Source: Polyangiaceae bacterium (GTDB lineage Bacteria; Myxococcota_A; Polyangia; Polyangiales; Polyangiaceae). From it: a stretch of DNA of 64,000 nt. The stretch spans positions 124,001 through 188,000 of the forward strand of contig JAHBVX010000002.1 in the NCBI GenBank assembly GCA_019637295.1, given 5' to 3'. This document shows, in pieces, positions 47,486-60,751 of this stretch. Position numbers and translations under genes: made by a program. Every line of letters starts with the position of its first letter. The first letter of the stretch is position 1. The notes below the pieces were generated by a model. The model ran no database searches. It saw only the letters and a program-made list of their open reading frames with translations, and was not told the DNA's origin.

Positions 47486-48517
47486 ATGAGCCCGACGCGC
47501 GCGAGGGTCGCCGCGCTGCAGATTGCGGCCCTGGGCACCGTCGCTTGTGGCAGCGAGCAGACGGGTCCCGAGCCGGATCCACCCATTCCCTTCGAGTACG
47601 CGCGGGATGACACGCTGCGCATGGATCAGCTGCAGCTCGTGGCCACGCACAACAGCTACCGGATCATGCCCGAAGGCATGACCATCACGGCGCTGCAGTA
47701 CGACCACCCGCCGCTCGACGTGCAGCTGCGCGAGCAAGGCGCGCGCGGGTTCGAGCTCGACATCCGCTACGACGCCGAGCTCGATACCTTCGTCGTCTAC
47801 CACCTGCCGGTCATCGACGAGCTGACGCACTGCCCGCGCCTCGTGGACTGCTTGCGCGCGCTCGAGAAGTGGTCGCGCAAGCGCCCCGGGCATCACCCGC
47901 TGTTCGTGCAGATCGAGCCCAAGGACGGCCTGCCCGCCGACGCCGAGCCGCTCGTGAGCAAGCTGGAGCAAGAGATCCTGAGCGTGTGGCCCCGCTCGCG
48001 CATCGTGACCCCCGACGACGTGCGTGGCGACTCCCCCACCCTAGCAGCCGCGCTCGCCAGCGATGGCTGGCCCACACTGGGCGAGACCCGGGGCAAGATC
48101 GTATTCTTCGTGGACGACACGAGCAGCTTTCGTGACGGCTACACCCGCGGCGGCAAGGACCTCGACGGCCGCCTCATGTTCGTTGACTCGGACCCAGGGG
48201 ATCCCTTCGGTGGGTTCGCGGTGATCAACGATCCCATCGGGGGCGCGACCTCGATCGCGGCGGCGCTGGCCGCAAACTTCATCGTGCGAACCCGCGCCGA
48301 CGGCGACAACATCGAGCCCCTCGCCGGTGACACGACGCGGCGCGACGCCGCCCTGAGCAGCGGCGCGCAGGTCGTGAGCACGGACTACCCGGTGGCCAAG
48401 CCCGGGGTGAACTTCGTGGTGGAGCTGCCGGGCGGGGCGCCATCGCGCTGCAATCCGGTGACGGCGCCCGCCGAGTGTGCCGCGACGGACATCGAAAACC
48501 CCGCGTTCGTCGAGTGA
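47486..48517 (+). CDS. Calcium-dependent PI-PLC-like phosphodiesterase lipoprotein
   Basis: 343 residues from ATG 47486; the signal LQIAALGTVACGSEQ has lipobox TVAC. LVATHNSYRIMPEG and LDVQLREQGARGFELDIRYD, then VVYHLPVIDELTHCPRLVDC, match the Ca2+-dependent phosphoinositide phospholipase C1-like family (TIM barrel; His of THNSY, Glu/Asp metal ligands in FELDIRYD, second His in VYHLP). Later GKIVFFVDDTSSFRDG and FIVRTRADGDN are also typical. It would act outside the cell on phosphodiester lipids or related esters. Starts from a broad divergent region; 61 bp separates it from the beta-helix gene. Confidence 0.83.
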   Translation: MSPTRARVAALQIAALGTVACGSEQTGPEPDPPIPFEYARDDTLRMDQLQLVATHNSYRIMPEGMTITALQYDHPPLDVQLREQGARGFELDIRYDAELDTFVVYHLPVIDELTHCPRLVDCLRALEKWSRKRPGHHPLFVQIEPKDGLPADAEPLVSKLEQEILSVWPRSRIVTPDDVRGDSPTLAAALASDGWPTLGETRGKIVFFVDDTSSFRDGYTRGGKDLDGRLMFVDSDPGDPFGGFAVINDPIGGATSIAAALAANFIVRTRADGDNIEPLAGDTTRRDAALSSGAQVVSTDYPVAKPGVNFVVELPGGAPSRCNPVTAPAECAATDIENPAFVE

Positions 48518-48578: not shown

Positions 48579-50105
48579 ATGGGCTGTGTTGGGCGTGCAA
48601 TCTGGGCGTTGGTGATCGTCGCATCCACCGCGTGCGGCGGCGGCGGTGGCGACGGCAGCGGGGCGAGCACCGGCGGCACCGGCGCGGCGAGCGGCGCGGG
48701 CGGCGCGGCCAGCGGTGGCACCGGAGCGGCAGCGGGCTCGGGTGGCACCGGAGCGGCAGCGGGCTCGGGCGGCGCGGGCGCGGCGAGCGGTGGCGGCGGT
48801 TCGTCAGGCGCCTCGGGCGGGACGGGCGGCTCCGCGGGCGGCGCCTGCAGCGGCGTCACCACCTTCGCGGACGGCGCGGTGCCGACGACCGAGGTGCACG
48901 TCAGCCCCACGGGCAACGATCAAGGCGCGGGTACGTCCGCGAGCCCCTTCGCCACCCTGGGCAAGGCCGCCTCCGTCGCCAGCCCGGGCACGGCCATCCG
49001 TCTGCAGCCGGGCACCTACGGCGGGGGCGCGTTTCTCTCCAACCTGTCCGGCACGGCGACCGCTCCGATCTGGATCGGCGGCGTGACCGGCTCTGCCAAG
49101 CCCGTGATCGACGGCGGCGGCCAGGCCATGCAGCTCAGCCGCGTGCGCTACTTGATCGTTCACGATCTGGAGGTGAGAAACAGCACCCAGAACGGCATCA
49201 ACATCGACGACGGCGCCGACTACGCCAACGAAGACGCGACGCGCTACGTCGTCTTTCGCAACCTGACCATCTCGGACATCGGCAGCGGCGGCAACCAAGA
49301 CTGCCTGAAGATGAGCGGCGTGAACGACTTCTGGGTGCTCGACAGCACGTTCACGAACTGCAGCAGCGGAGGCTCGGGCATCGACATGGTGGGCTGCCAT
49401 CGCGGGCTCATCGCGGGCAACACCTTCACTGACATGGGGAGCAACGCCGTGCAGGGCAAGGGCGGCACGGACGACGTCGAGATCCGCCACAATCGCATCA
49501 AGAACGGCGGCCAGCGCGCCATCAACCTGGGCGGGTCCACGGGCTTTCAGTTCTTCCGTCCGCCGCTCTCGACCTCCGCGCCCAACTTCGAGGCCAGGAA
49601 CATTCGAGTGGTCGCCAATTTGATCGAGGGGTCCATGGCGCCCATCGCCTTCGTGGGGTGCGTGAGCTGTGTGGCAGCGCAGAACACCATCGTCAATCCG
49701 ACGAACTGGATCATTCGCATTCTGCAAGAGACCACCTCGGGCAGCGGCTACACCTTCGAGCCCGCGAAGGACGGCGTGTTCGAGAACAACCTCGTCTACT
49801 TCGCGCGGGGCGGGCTCTCCACCTACGTGAACGTGGGCGCGAACACGGACGCGCCGAGCTTCACATTCCGAACCAACCTCTGGTACGCGCACGACAACGC
49901 CGCGCAGTCGCAGCCGACGAACCTGCCCGCCGCCGAGTCCGGCGGCATCTACGGGCAAGACCCGGGCGTCGCCGCGCCAGACTTCGTCACCGGCGCGGGC
50001 AGCCCCGCCGTCGGCCAGGGCACCCACCCCGCCCACGCGCCCGGCGATCTGCTCGGCAAGTGCTGGCAGAACCCGCCCAGCATCGGCGCCTACGAAGGAG
50101 GCTGA
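48579..50105 (+). CDS. Right-handed beta-helix lipoprotein
   Basis: 508 residues from ATG 48579, with AAAAGGAG upstream. Signal IWALVIVASTACGGG has lipobox STAC. A 65-residue Gly/Ser/Ala linker leads to a domain starting TTEVHVSPTGNDQGAGTSAS and PFATLGKAASVASPGTAIRL, the DUF1565/beta-helix entry motif, then stacked coils (YLIVHDLEVRNSTQNGINID, FRNLTISDIGSGGNQDCLKM, HRGLIAGNTFTDMGSNAVQG, IRVVANLIEGSMAPIAFVG) and SIGAYEGG at the end. Fold suits a polysaccharide lyase, hydrolase or adhesin; no active-site set is clear. Its stop overlaps the radical-SAM start by one base. Confidence 0.85.
   Translation: MGCVGRAIWALVIVASTACGGGGGDGSGASTGGTGAASGAGGAASGGTGAAAGSGGTGAAAGSGGAGAASGGGGSSGASGGTGGSAGGACSGVTTFADGAVPTTEVHVSPTGNDQGAGTSASPFATLGKAASVASPGTAIRLQPGTYGGGAFLSNLSGTATAPIWIGGVTGSAKPVIDGGGQAMQLSRVRYLIVHDLEVRNSTQNGINIDDGADYANEDATRYVVFRNLTISDIGSGGNQDCLKMSGVNDFWVLDSTFTNCSSGGSGIDMVGCHRGLIAGNTFTDMGSNAVQGKGGTDDVEIRHNRIKNGGQRAINLGGSTGFQFFRPPLSTSAPNFEARNIRVVANLIEGSMAPIAFVGCVSCVAAQNTIVNPTNWIIRILQETTSGSGYTFEPAKDGVFENNLVYFARGGLSTYVNVGANTDAPSFTFRTNLWYAHDNAAQSQPTNLPAAESGGIYGQDPGVAAPDFVTGAGSPAVGQGTHPAHAPGDLLGKCWQNPPSIGAYEGG
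48714..48767. repeat. Two exact 27-bp tandem units in the beta-helix lipoprotein linker
   Basis: The 27-base unit beginning GGTGGCACCGGAGCG occurs at 48714-48740 and again at 48741-48767 without change. It is in frame and encodes a Gly/Ala/Thr/Ser-rich nine-residue step of the linker. Confidence 0.85.
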
Positions 50106-52435
50106 TGCGCGTCGCGATCTTGTTCCCGCCGCTCAGGGTCTCGCGGGACTTCATCGACTACCCGTACTTCGCCGATCTGGGCGCGGTGCAGGCTGCGGCG
50201 GTGCTGCGGCAAGCGGCTCTAGACGTGGTGCTGCTCGACGCGCTCGCGCGCCCGGGCTCGACGCTGACGGAGGCGGGCAGCGAGCTCGATCTGGGCGAGC
50301 CCCTCGAGTCGTACCTCGACGCGGTGCGCGCCCTGGAGGCGGACGTCGTGCTCATGGCCTATTCACCGTTCCACCGGCCGCCCTCGCGCGCCCACGGCCT
50401 GTCGCAGGCGCTCGAGGTATTGCGGCAGGCGCTGCCCAGGGCCCCGATCTGGCTCGCGGACTTGTACCAGAGCGGCCAGCACTACGTCGACGCGCCGGCG
50501 GCGGAGGTGCTCGCGGCGTACCCGGAGATCGACGGCTACCTGCGCTACGAGGCCGAGACTCGGCTCGCAGTGCTCGTGCAGCAGTGGCAGCAGGCCGGGC
50601 GCGGCGGCGAGCGACGCGTCGTAGACGGCGGCGAGACCGCGGAGCTGGACGCCTTGCCCATTCCCGCCTGGGACCTGCTCGACGTGCCCGCGTACTTCGA
50701 GCTGCAAGCAGCCATCGTGCGCGGTCTCGGTCGCCCGAGCTGGGCCTTTCCCCTGGGGCGTGCGCTGCCCCTGGTGACCAGTCGAGGGTGCCCGTTTCGC
50801 TGCGCGCACTGCTCGTCCAATCCCGGGCTCGCGCCCGGCGCGCCCAAGCGCCAACGCCGGCTGGCACCGGCGCGGCTGCGGGAGGTCATCAGCGCCCTGC
50901 GCGCTCAGGGCGCCGAGCGCGTGCACGTGCTCGACGAGCTGGCCAACGTGAGCGAGCGGCACTTCGACGCGCTGCTCGACGCCCTCTGCGAGCACGAGCT
51001 CGCGTTCGAGATCCCCAACGGGCTGCGCGCGGACTACGTGTTGCCCGAGCACCTCGAGCGCATGCGCGGCCGATTGACCACGCTGAGCGTGAGCGCCGAG
51101 AGCGGCGTGCAGCGCGTGGTGGACGAGGTCGTGAGCAAGGACCTCGACCTGTCGGCCATCGCCCGCGTCGCCGAGCGAGCCCGCGACGCGGGCGTCGCGC
51201 TGCTCATCCACTTCATGATCGGCCTGCCGGGCGAGAGCGCCGAGGAGGTCAACGCGACCCTCGCGTTCGCGCTCGACCTGCACGAGCGCTTCGGCGCCTG
51301 GCCCAGCGTGCAGTTCGCGACCCCGCTGCCTGGTACGCGCCTGGCCGAGCACGCCCGAGGCGCGCTGCCGGTGCTGGACTGGGGACCTCGCTTCCAGCAG
51401 CGACCGAGCGCGCTGTCGCGGGGGCTACCGGAAGCGACCCTGCGCGCGTTCAAGGAGACCTTCGACCTTCGTCTGGCCGCCTCCGGCGGACCCAAGAAGG
51501 CCATCATGAACGTCACCTACCGCTGCAACAACCACTGCACCTTCTGCGCCGTGGGCACGCGCACTCAGGTGGACGGGAACTTCGAGCGGCAGCGCGAGCT
51601 GCTGGTCAAGTACCGGCAGCAAGGCGTGCGGCTGCTCGACCTGGACGGCGGAGAGCCGACCCTCAACGAGCGGCTCTTTGCGCTCATCCGCTTCGCCCGC
51701 AAGCTCGGCTACGAGAAGGTGAACGTGACCACCAACGGTCGCATGGCCGCGTACGAAGCCTACGCCCGCGAGCTGGTTCGTAGCGGCGTGACCAGCGTCC
51801 TGTTCAGCCTGCACGGCCACGAGCCCTGGCTGCACGCGGCGAACGTGGGTGTACCCGAGGCCTTCGAGCAGACCCTGGCCGGCATCGCCAACGTGCAGCG
51901 GCTCGCGGAGCCCGAACTCGAACTCGGCGCGAACGTCACCGTCACCCTGTCGAACCACAAGCACCTAGTCGAGATCGCGGACCTGGTGCACGCGCTGGGG
52001 CTACGCTGGCTCAACATCCAGTTTCTCACGCCCTTCGGGCGCGCGACGAGCACGGTTTGTCCGGACCTACACGCGGCCGCCGAGCAGACCATGCGCGTCA
52101 TCGATCGTCACCGCGACACGATGAAGCTCGCCGTGATCAACGCGCCCTGGTGCGCGTTGCCCGGCTACGAGCAGTTCGTGGCCGCGGACTTGCTCAAGCT
52201 CGAGCGCCACATGCTGTTCGTGGACAACGAAGAGGTGAATCTCTTCGAGTATCTGCGCGAGCAGCGCGAGTACCGAGCCGAGTGCGCGCCGTGTCCGCGT
52301 CGCGTCTTCTGCGGCGGGTTCTACAAAGAGAGCGACGTAGCGGAGCCCACCTGGCTCATCGCGCCGGAAGATCTCGTGCGTCGCATCGAGCCGGCGGGCA
52401 AGACCGGCCCCGCTCGCGAGCGAGGGCGGGCGTGA
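50105..52435 (+). CDS. B12-binding-like, double radical-SAM protein
   Basis: 776 residues from ATG 50105 (TGATG overlap with the beta-helix gene). Residues 1-190 look like the Rossmann B12-binding domain of BchE-type enzymes (VAILFPPL, YFADLGAVQAAAVLRQAA), though no DxHxxG motif is visible. First radical-SAM core: CPFRCAHC (Cys229/233/236), then SVSAESGVQRVVDEV and HFMIGLPGESAEE. Second core: CNNHCTFC (Cys474/478/481), DGGEPTL (514-520) and VTTNGR. A third Cys set, CAPCPRRVFC (727/730/736), could hold an auxiliary iron-sulphur cluster as in Twitch/SPASM proteins. Two complete cores in one chain are unusual; the second resembles peptide- or lipid-modifying enzymes. Substrate unknown. Confidence 0.87.
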   Translation: MRVAILFPPLRVSRDFIDYPYFADLGAVQAAAVLRQAALDVVLLDALARPGSTLTEAGSELDLGEPLESYLDAVRALEADVVLMAYSPFHRPPSRAHGLSQALEVLRQALPRAPIWLADLYQSGQHYVDAPAAEVLAAYPEIDGYLRYEAETRLAVLVQQWQQAGRGGERRVVDGGETAELDALPIPAWDLLDVPAYFELQAAIVRGLGRPSWAFPLGRALPLVTSRGCPFRCAHCSSNPGLAPGAPKRQRRLAPARLREVISALRAQGAERVHVLDELANVSERHFDALLDALCEHELAFEIPNGLRADYVLPEHLERMRGRLTTLSVSAESGVQRVVDEVVSKDLDLSAIARVAERARDAGVALLIHFMIGLPGESAEEVNATLAFALDLHERFGAWPSVQFATPLPGTRLAEHARGALPVLDWGPRFQQRPSALSRGLPEATLRAFKETFDLRLAASGGPKKAIMNVTYRCNNHCTFCAVGTRTQVDGNFERQRELLVKYRQQGVRLLDLDGGEPTLNERLFALIRFARKLGYEKVNVTTNGRMAAYEAYARELVRSGVTSVLFSLHGHEPWLHAANVGVPEAFEQTLAGIANVQRLAEPELELGANVTVTLSNHKHLVEIADLVHALGLRWLNIQFLTPFGRATSTVCPDLHAAAEQTMRVIDRHRDTMKLAVINAPWCALPGYEQFVAADLLKLERHMLFVDNEEVNLFEYLREQREYRAECAPCPRRVFCGGFYKESDVAEPTWLIAPEDLVRRIEPAGKTGPARERGRA

Positions 52436-59824: not shown

Positions 59825-60751
59825 TCAGCGCGGTACTGGCACCGAGCAGCTGTCTCGAGGCCCCAGCCACGACATCAGGTTGACCCAGAGCTTCTCGATC
59901 TCGGGCAGGCTCTGCCACTCGGAGTCGTACTCGATCCACTCGTCACCCCAGACTACCGCGCGACCTTCGCCGCGCTCGTGGGCATAGGCGACCGGGCCAG
60001 CCGAGATGCTGCCGATTGGGGTGCTGGTGCCACCGCTGCCACCGCTGTCGCCCACGAGGTAGCCGCCGAGGAACGTGACTGACGTCAAACCGACCGTCAC
60101 CGGGTGCGTGGCGAAGCTGGTCACCGGCTCGCTGTGCAGGCCGGGCAAGTAAGAGAGCCCCAGCGGCGCGAGCAGCGAGTTGGTGCGAAAGTCCAGCGCC
60201 GCGCCCGTGTAGCCGGTCATGCTGACGAATCCGCCGCCTGCTTCCACCCAGAGCCTCAAGGCGTCCGCTTCCGTCGTCGTGTAGTCGCGCGACAGTTGGT
60301 CGAAGATCACGACGTCGTACTGAGCCAGGAACGCCGCGTCGAAGGTCTCCGTCGGCGCCGTGTGGCTGCGCTCCACCGAGGTGCCACGCGCCGTGAGCCA
60401 GCCCTGGAAGTTCGCCGAAGGGTTCGAACCCGGGCTGCCCACGATGCCGATGCGCAGGCAGTCGCAGATCCCGTCGTTGCCCACGTCGACGTCGTCGATC
60501 TTGCCGTTGCAGTCGTCGTCGATGCCGTTGCACTCCGTCTCGATCGCCGCCGTCGGTATGCACGCCCCCGCGTCGGTGCTGATGCCGCCGCCGGTCCCCG
60601 ACGATCCGCCACCCCCCGAGCTGCCCGCGCTGCCCCCCGTCGCCGCCGTCGCGCCGCTGCCCCCGAAGGCCCCGGGCCCCGCGGTCTTCCCGTCGTCTGC
60701 CGAGCAACGCAACAGCGATCCGAACGCGAGACAGAGAGCAACCCGGCGCAT
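59825..60751 (-). CDS. Lipoprotein with MopE-type Cys-Asn-Asp motif
   Basis: 308 residues from ATG 60751. The signal ends SLLRCSAD (Cys, lipobox-like). After a Gly/Ser linker (about 25-55) comes ETECNGIDDDCNGKIDDVDV, the repeat found in MopE and other calcium- or copper-binding myxobacterial proteins. The C-terminal 190 residues (CDCLRIGIVGSPGSNPSANF, AAFLAQYDVVIFDQLSRDYT, ALRLWVEAGGGFVSMTGYTG) resemble a class-I-glutamine-amidotransferase-like alpha/beta fold such as ThuA/DUF4350, with no clear nucleophile Cys. Exact role unknown. 33 bp after the zinc-ribbon gene's stop, same strand. Confidence 0.78.
   Translation of the reverse strand: MRRVALCLAFGSLLRCSADDGKTAGPGAFGGSGATAATGGSAGSSGGGGSSGTGGGISTDAGACIPTAAIETECNGIDDDCNGKIDDVDVGNDGICDCLRIGIVGSPGSNPSANFQGWLTARGTSVERSHTAPTETFDAAFLAQYDVVIFDQLSRDYTTTEADALRLWVEAGGGFVSMTGYTGAALDFRTNSLLAPLGLSYLPGLHSEPVTSFATHPVTVGLTSVTFLGGYLVGDSGGSGGTSTPIGSISAGPVAYAHERGEGRAVVWGDEWIEYDSEWQSLPEIEKLWVNLMSWLGPRDSCSVPVPR

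Follow-up and report, generated by a model that had tools for sequence, protein, structure and literature searches.

Gene and reading frame

Radical-SAM enzymes mostly have one core. The window analysed here is a stretch of 64,000 nucleotides from a Polyangiaceae genome of 7.65 Mb that has 64 Radical_SAM matches, and it contains a gene, called DUAL, whose product has two. The features at the locus and the evidence for each are listed below.

48579..50105, + strand: beta-helix lipoprotein, judged incidental (Pfam Beta_helix; no homologue in 79 orthologue loci)
50095..50101, + strand: AAGGAGG, ribosome-binding-site-like, inside the 3' end of the beta-helix gene (from sequence)
50105..52435, + strand: DUAL, the two-core radical-SAM gene, 776 aa (ORF, two Radical_SAM stretches, 78 full-length orthologues)
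50105..50644, + strand: Rossmann-like domain of B12 type at the N-terminus, residues ~1-180 (Pfam B12-binding under cut-off, AlphaFold2, Foldseek, invariant columns)
50747..51379, + strand: core 1 (radical-SAM), residues ~215-425, with CX3CX2C at 229/233/236 (Pfam 224-388, AlphaFold2, Cys in 77 of 78)
51491..52144, + strand: core 2 (radical-SAM), residues ~463-680, with CX3CX2C at 474/478/481, GGEPT at 515-519 (Radical_SAM at window 51506-51904, AlphaFold2, Cys in 77 of 78)
52151..52339, + strand: C-terminal twitch-like region, residues 683-745, with C683, C727, C730 and C736 (all four in 78 of 78)

The start of DUAL and the stop of the beta-helix gene overlap by one base (TGATG at 50103-50107). 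Pfam Radical_SAM matches the product in two stretches (E 9e-33), which the whole-genome scan places at C12:174774-175271 and 175506-175904, corresponding to 50774-51271 and 51506-51904 of the window. A sequence-only reading of this DNA had reported CPFRCAHC at residues 229-236, CNNHCTFC at 474-481 and CAPCPRRVFC at 727-736, and all three are found there. It had also claimed that a single polypeptide carries two complete cores. On this the two Pfam stretches, the cysteine conservation and a confident AlphaFold2 model (54 sequences, mean pLDDT 88.8, pTM 0.88) agree.

DUAL loci were recovered 79 times from the public genome set, and 78 full-length sequences, including the window protein, were aligned. 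Each CX3CX2C triad is kept in 77 of the 78 and the four C-terminal cysteines in every one, so DUAL is not a frame error. The 78 full-length orthologues rule out an accidental fusion as well and speak against the concern, raised with the original claim, that the halves are separate genes joined here by such an error. The two triad exceptions, L062 (SSS in core 2) and L083 (core 1 lost), lie on one common contig in genome G075. Relatives beyond Myxococcota come from two MAGs, one bacterial (L076) and one with the label Nanoarchaeota (L077). On the 12-kb contig of the latter (L077:971-11985), ORF reading gives DUAL and seven more radical-SAM genes, one of which encodes 817 aa with two Radical_SAM stretches.

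Among the best 25 of 67 NCBIfam matches, none spans the whole of DUAL and each best stretch covers one half, far under its cut-off. No paper on the family was found in the open-access literature, a coverage outside which most subscription journals lie. DUAL represents a conserved myxobacterial enzyme family, apparently undescribed so far.

Two halves of different type

In the AlphaFold2 model, strands and helices alternate in the N-terminal domain, where Y19, P20, G26, G64, G124 and E149 are invariant. The Pfam B12-binding profile gives 16.4 bits against a cut-off of 32.1 on residues 23-117 of the window protein. It reaches E<=0.01 in 12 of 54 relatives, with values down to 1e-5 in some and 2.4e-6 in L064. 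Foldseek with the DUAL model ranks MgmA first (9ccb, E 1.6e-14), followed by AprD4, TokK, CysS and TsrM, with further matches to SuiB, BlsE, viperin, SkfB, PqqE and MoaA, and it finds in DUAL the class B fold of a Rossmann domain followed by a radical-SAM barrel. In a profile search residues 216-422 match AprD4 and MgmA, AprD4 being the best at E 1.8e-21. The model gives good support for a resemblance in fold between the N-terminal half and cobalamin-dependent radical-SAM methylases, and cobalamin binding is predicted. The B12-like domain of the sequence-only reading is therefore recovered by fold and seen weakly by sequence, where Pfam stays below its cut-off.

It is quite possible, although we consider it the less probable case, that core 1 uses no cobalamin at all and that the Rossmann-like domain is a relic beside SAM-only chemistry, which would be a variant of the Hxs-type role proposed below. 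The sub-cut-off Pfam score and the rank of AprD4 as best profile match for the core 1 region are consistent with this, whereas the rank of MgmA as best fold match and the E values of the B12-binding profile in some relatives, above all L064, argue for cobalamin. AprD4 also calls for caution about cobalamin binding, as this enzyme, close to the DUAL model in fold, works as a radical-SAM diol dehydratase and not as a methylase.

The C-terminal half gives a different set of matches. The profile search with residues 455-713 finds BlsE, SkfB, PqqE and viperin. Scores of 88.1 bits against HxsC (TIGR03977, cut-off 267.9) and 109.5 bits against HxsC4 (NF038332, cut-off 500) lie under the curated cut-offs, and filing DUAL under either family was rejected; its C-terminal half is clearly related to HxsC/HxsC4, yet is no member. 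Since the profile matches split cleanly by half, the halves represent two different radical-SAM types and not an internal duplication.

After the second barrel, only C683, C727, C730 and C736 are conserved among the 78 orthologues, and the seven-cysteine SPASM pattern with two auxiliary clusters is absent. The four invariant cysteines fit a twitch-type site for a single auxiliary [4Fe-4S] cluster, which is predicted. The third cysteine cluster that had been pointed out, CAPCPRRVFC, is thus real and its cysteines are kept in all 78 sequences; a fourth invariant cysteine, C683, had been missed.

Association with Hxs-type and other radical-SAM proteins

Co-occurrence was counted in 290 genomes of the class with cut-offs that we set (DUAL E <= 1e-47, HxsB E <= 1e-60, HxsC4 E <= 1e-90, and E <= 1e-50 for a radical-SAM protein of ~600 aa); the counts take no account of shared ancestry. 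DUAL is present in 91 genomes, patchily inside several families. Uncorrected for ancestry, the ~600-aa radical-SAM protein is found in 89/91 genomes with DUAL and 3/199 without it, HxsB in 86/91 and 10/199, and HxsC4 in 70/91 and 1/199. The five DUAL genomes that lack HxsB (G140, G145, G148, G241 and G282) are incomplete (65-86% complete). These genes neighbour one another in many genomes, and all four lie inside about 18 kb in, for example, three of them (G142:C1:470-489 kb, G072:C78:12-28 kb and G018:C72:28-46 kb). Clustering of the neighbours at DUAL loci places the ~600-aa protein in 38 loci and a radical-SAM group of ~330 aa in 40, with HxsB, HxsD-like and other small proteins nearby in fewer. 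Proteins of the aKG-HExxH peptide beta-hydroxylase type are also among the neighbours, as are HxsD-like proteins.

In the genome of the window DUAL stands alone, and its presumed partners are scattered on other contigs. A cluster at C1:860-874 kb holds a ~600-aa radical-SAM protein, HxsD-like proteins and a methyltransferase-like protein, whose homologue in L077 (27% identity, E 1e-39) is encoded by the gene that immediately precedes DUAL. A true HxsC4 is encoded separately at C1:900 kb (577 bits against a cut-off of 500), and HxsB matches at C8:35.5 kb and C21:94 kb score above theirs, so that the genome has HxsB together with an HxsC-type radical-SAM protein, two components of an Hxs system. 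HxsD falls just under the cut-off of TIGR03976 (48.6 against 50) and exceeds that of HxsD_rel NF038315 (73 against 41). A second HxsB/HxsD set and a second ~600-aa radical-SAM protein lie in a radical-SAM island in C21:75-105 kb (L134, L135), with presumed partners at C21:84-99 kb. Also in the island are a hydroxylase of the aKG-HExxH type and a protein of 1071 aa that matches B12-binding above cut-off and has two CX3CX2C motifs. The gene clpB (named from sequence) adjoins the C1 cluster here and lies near DUAL in L009, L011, L012 and L062, which hints that the set was formerly together.

No credible HxsA His-Xaa-Ser repeat precursor was found in the genome of the window (best E 0.5, 12 bits). 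Another candidate precursor, the small conserved neighbour c149 (10 loci and two own copies), was rejected: no family matched it above cut-off, and neither repeats nor a core-peptide pattern were seen in it.

Copies that divide the two cores

Paired DUAL copies are found in three genomes, G075 (L062, L083), G233 and G246 (L144-L147). In copy A the N-terminal half is 57-60% identical to the window protein and the C-terminal half has drifted to 30-40%; the core 2 cysteines are serines in G075 and still present in G233 and G246. In copy B it is the C-terminal half that is kept (59-68% identity), while the N-terminal half has fallen to 29% and the core 1 cysteines are lost. For comparison, two intact orthologues give identities of 59-65% and 68-72%. 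Copy B adjoins HxsC4 in G075 and G246. In trees of the halves, those that are intact in the G075 pair group apart from their counterparts in G233 and G246, which suggests that the split arose in two events, although the trees are not clean-cut on one versus two.

The reciprocal decay of the cores looks like a division of two separable functions; the steps are taken as separable because, in some genomes, each has a copy to itself. The earlier suggestion of a two-step enzyme gains support from this split as well as from the two cores, the conserved cysteines and the model. Additionally, in L064 (4685-7891) DUAL is continuous with a third radical-SAM region of ~300 aa, giving a protein of 1069 aa with three Radical_SAM stretches.

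Proposed role

We propose that DUAL is a bifunctional radical-SAM enzyme that carries out two separable steps in an Hxs-type (HxsB/HxsC4/HxsD-like) peptide- or protein-modification pathway, with a probability of about 0.6. Core 1 and the Rossmann-like domain would perform class B (cobalamin-type) chemistry, most simply the methylation, or some other activation, of an unreactive carbon. Core 2 would use a single auxiliary iron-sulphur cluster on C683, C727, C730 and C736 for a second radical modification, similar to those by HxsC, PqqE or SkfB. The two steps would have one peptide or protein as their common substrate, which the other enzymes of the set also handle, and a peptide fits with the neighbouring aKG-HExxH-type peptide beta-hydroxylases. 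Several points stand against the proposal: no precursor was found, HxsA giving E 0.5 in DUAL's own genome; the window's DUAL is alone, its presumed partners being on other contigs; the sub-cut-off B12-binding score and the nature of AprD4 leave cobalamin binding a prediction; and the co-occurrence counts take no account of shared ancestry.

DUAL may instead be a small-molecule biosynthetic enzyme (for a cofactor, a nucleoside or an antibiotic-type product), which we regard as rather unlikely. FbiC, in F420 synthesis, is a precedent for a two-core protein that makes a metabolite (PMC6450877), core 2 also resembles BlsE and viperin, and the substrate of AprD4 is the aminoglycoside precursor paromamine. 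However, the constant companions of DUAL are Hxs-type and other radical-SAM proteins, and none of its recurring neighbours was recognised as a typical gene of small-molecule biosynthesis.

A much broader form of protein modification, which we hold to be improbable, would make the DUAL family the hub of an assembly line of five or more radical-SAM enzymes that modifies many secreted MopE-type metal-binding repeats, that is, a post-translational modification of surface lipoproteins in myxobacteria on the scale of the proteome. At family level the density of MopE-type repeats in the sample is 17 per Mb with DUAL and 4 without it (~4x, from loose candidate counts with phylogeny uncontrolled), and the trend in the family- and order-level sample has exceptions. 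MopE-type proteins occur in 265 of the 290 genomes and some MopE-rich genomes have no DUAL; as a substrate of DUAL they were set aside as a lead only. A lipoprotein-like gene with a MopE-like CNGIDDDCNG motif lies at 59825-60751 of the window.

Finally, that DUAL works with the beta-helix lipoprotein, modifying it or a surface lipid, is very improbable and was rejected: the one-base overlap and common direction favour it, but a homologue of the lipoprotein is found at none of the 79 DUAL loci, the upstream gene in the same-genus locus L009 is unrelated, and genomes that have DUAL show no clear difference in beta-helix density from those that lack it (p = 0.07). Of the coupling that the sequence-only reading had drawn, only the one-base overlap in this genome therefore stands. 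The role at the cell surface that had been built on it, on a lipid or on the lipoprotein, is unsupported because this partner is not conserved; the conserved partners are radical-SAM and Hxs proteins. As claimed, the ferritin-like and FAD genes downstream lie in the opposite orientation; among the 79 loci, only L009 has the ferritin, FAD and CtaA genes in common with the window. A PI-PLC-C1-type protein with a signal-like N-terminus (47486-48517) adjoins the lipoprotein and also has no homologue in the orthologue loci. DUAL's real genomic association is with the multi-radical-SAM set and not with the beta-helix lipoprotein.

With the Hxs-type role, the Hxs system would grow from two radical-SAM proteins to at least four. 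As far as the open-access literature goes, with most subscription journals outside its coverage, that system is predicted and not biochemically solved, and HxsB and HxsC receive brief mentions only. Throughout a large bacterial class the DUAL family has kept two unlike cores in a single chain. The three genomes in which each core has its own copy make the need for two radical steps in one protein directly testable.

Comparison with known systems

FbiC, the Fo synthase of F420 biosynthesis, is a fusion of CofH and CofG homologues (PMC6450877) and, with two radical-SAM cores in one chain, sets a precedent for DUAL. It differs in that its cores appear to be of other families by the matches found, CofG, CofH and FbiC being absent from the best 25 of 67 NCBIfam matches to DUAL, and no F420 context was seen around DUAL.

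MgmA is a B12-dependent radical-SAM enzyme that methylates a glutamine of methyl-coenzyme M reductase, a protein substrate, and is built of a Rossmann domain, a partial barrel and a C-terminal domain (PMC11796369). As the best fold match (9ccb) it shares this build with DUAL, but it has one core only and 18% identity, and a protein substrate and cobalamin use are only predicted for DUAL. AprD4 (PDB 6fd2), the best profile match of the core 1 region, differs in having one core and a small-molecule substrate.

PqqE, SkfB and other SPASM-twitch peptide maturases resemble DUAL in the profile matches of core 2 and in the C-terminal CX2CX5C site, whereas DUAL has four cysteines for one site against the seven of SPASM. 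HxsC and HxsC4, the radical-SAM maturases of the His-Xaa-Ser system, are related to the C-terminal half of DUAL, which travels with HxsB and HxsC4; DUAL differs from them in scoring far under their cut-offs and in having an extra B12-type radical-SAM half.
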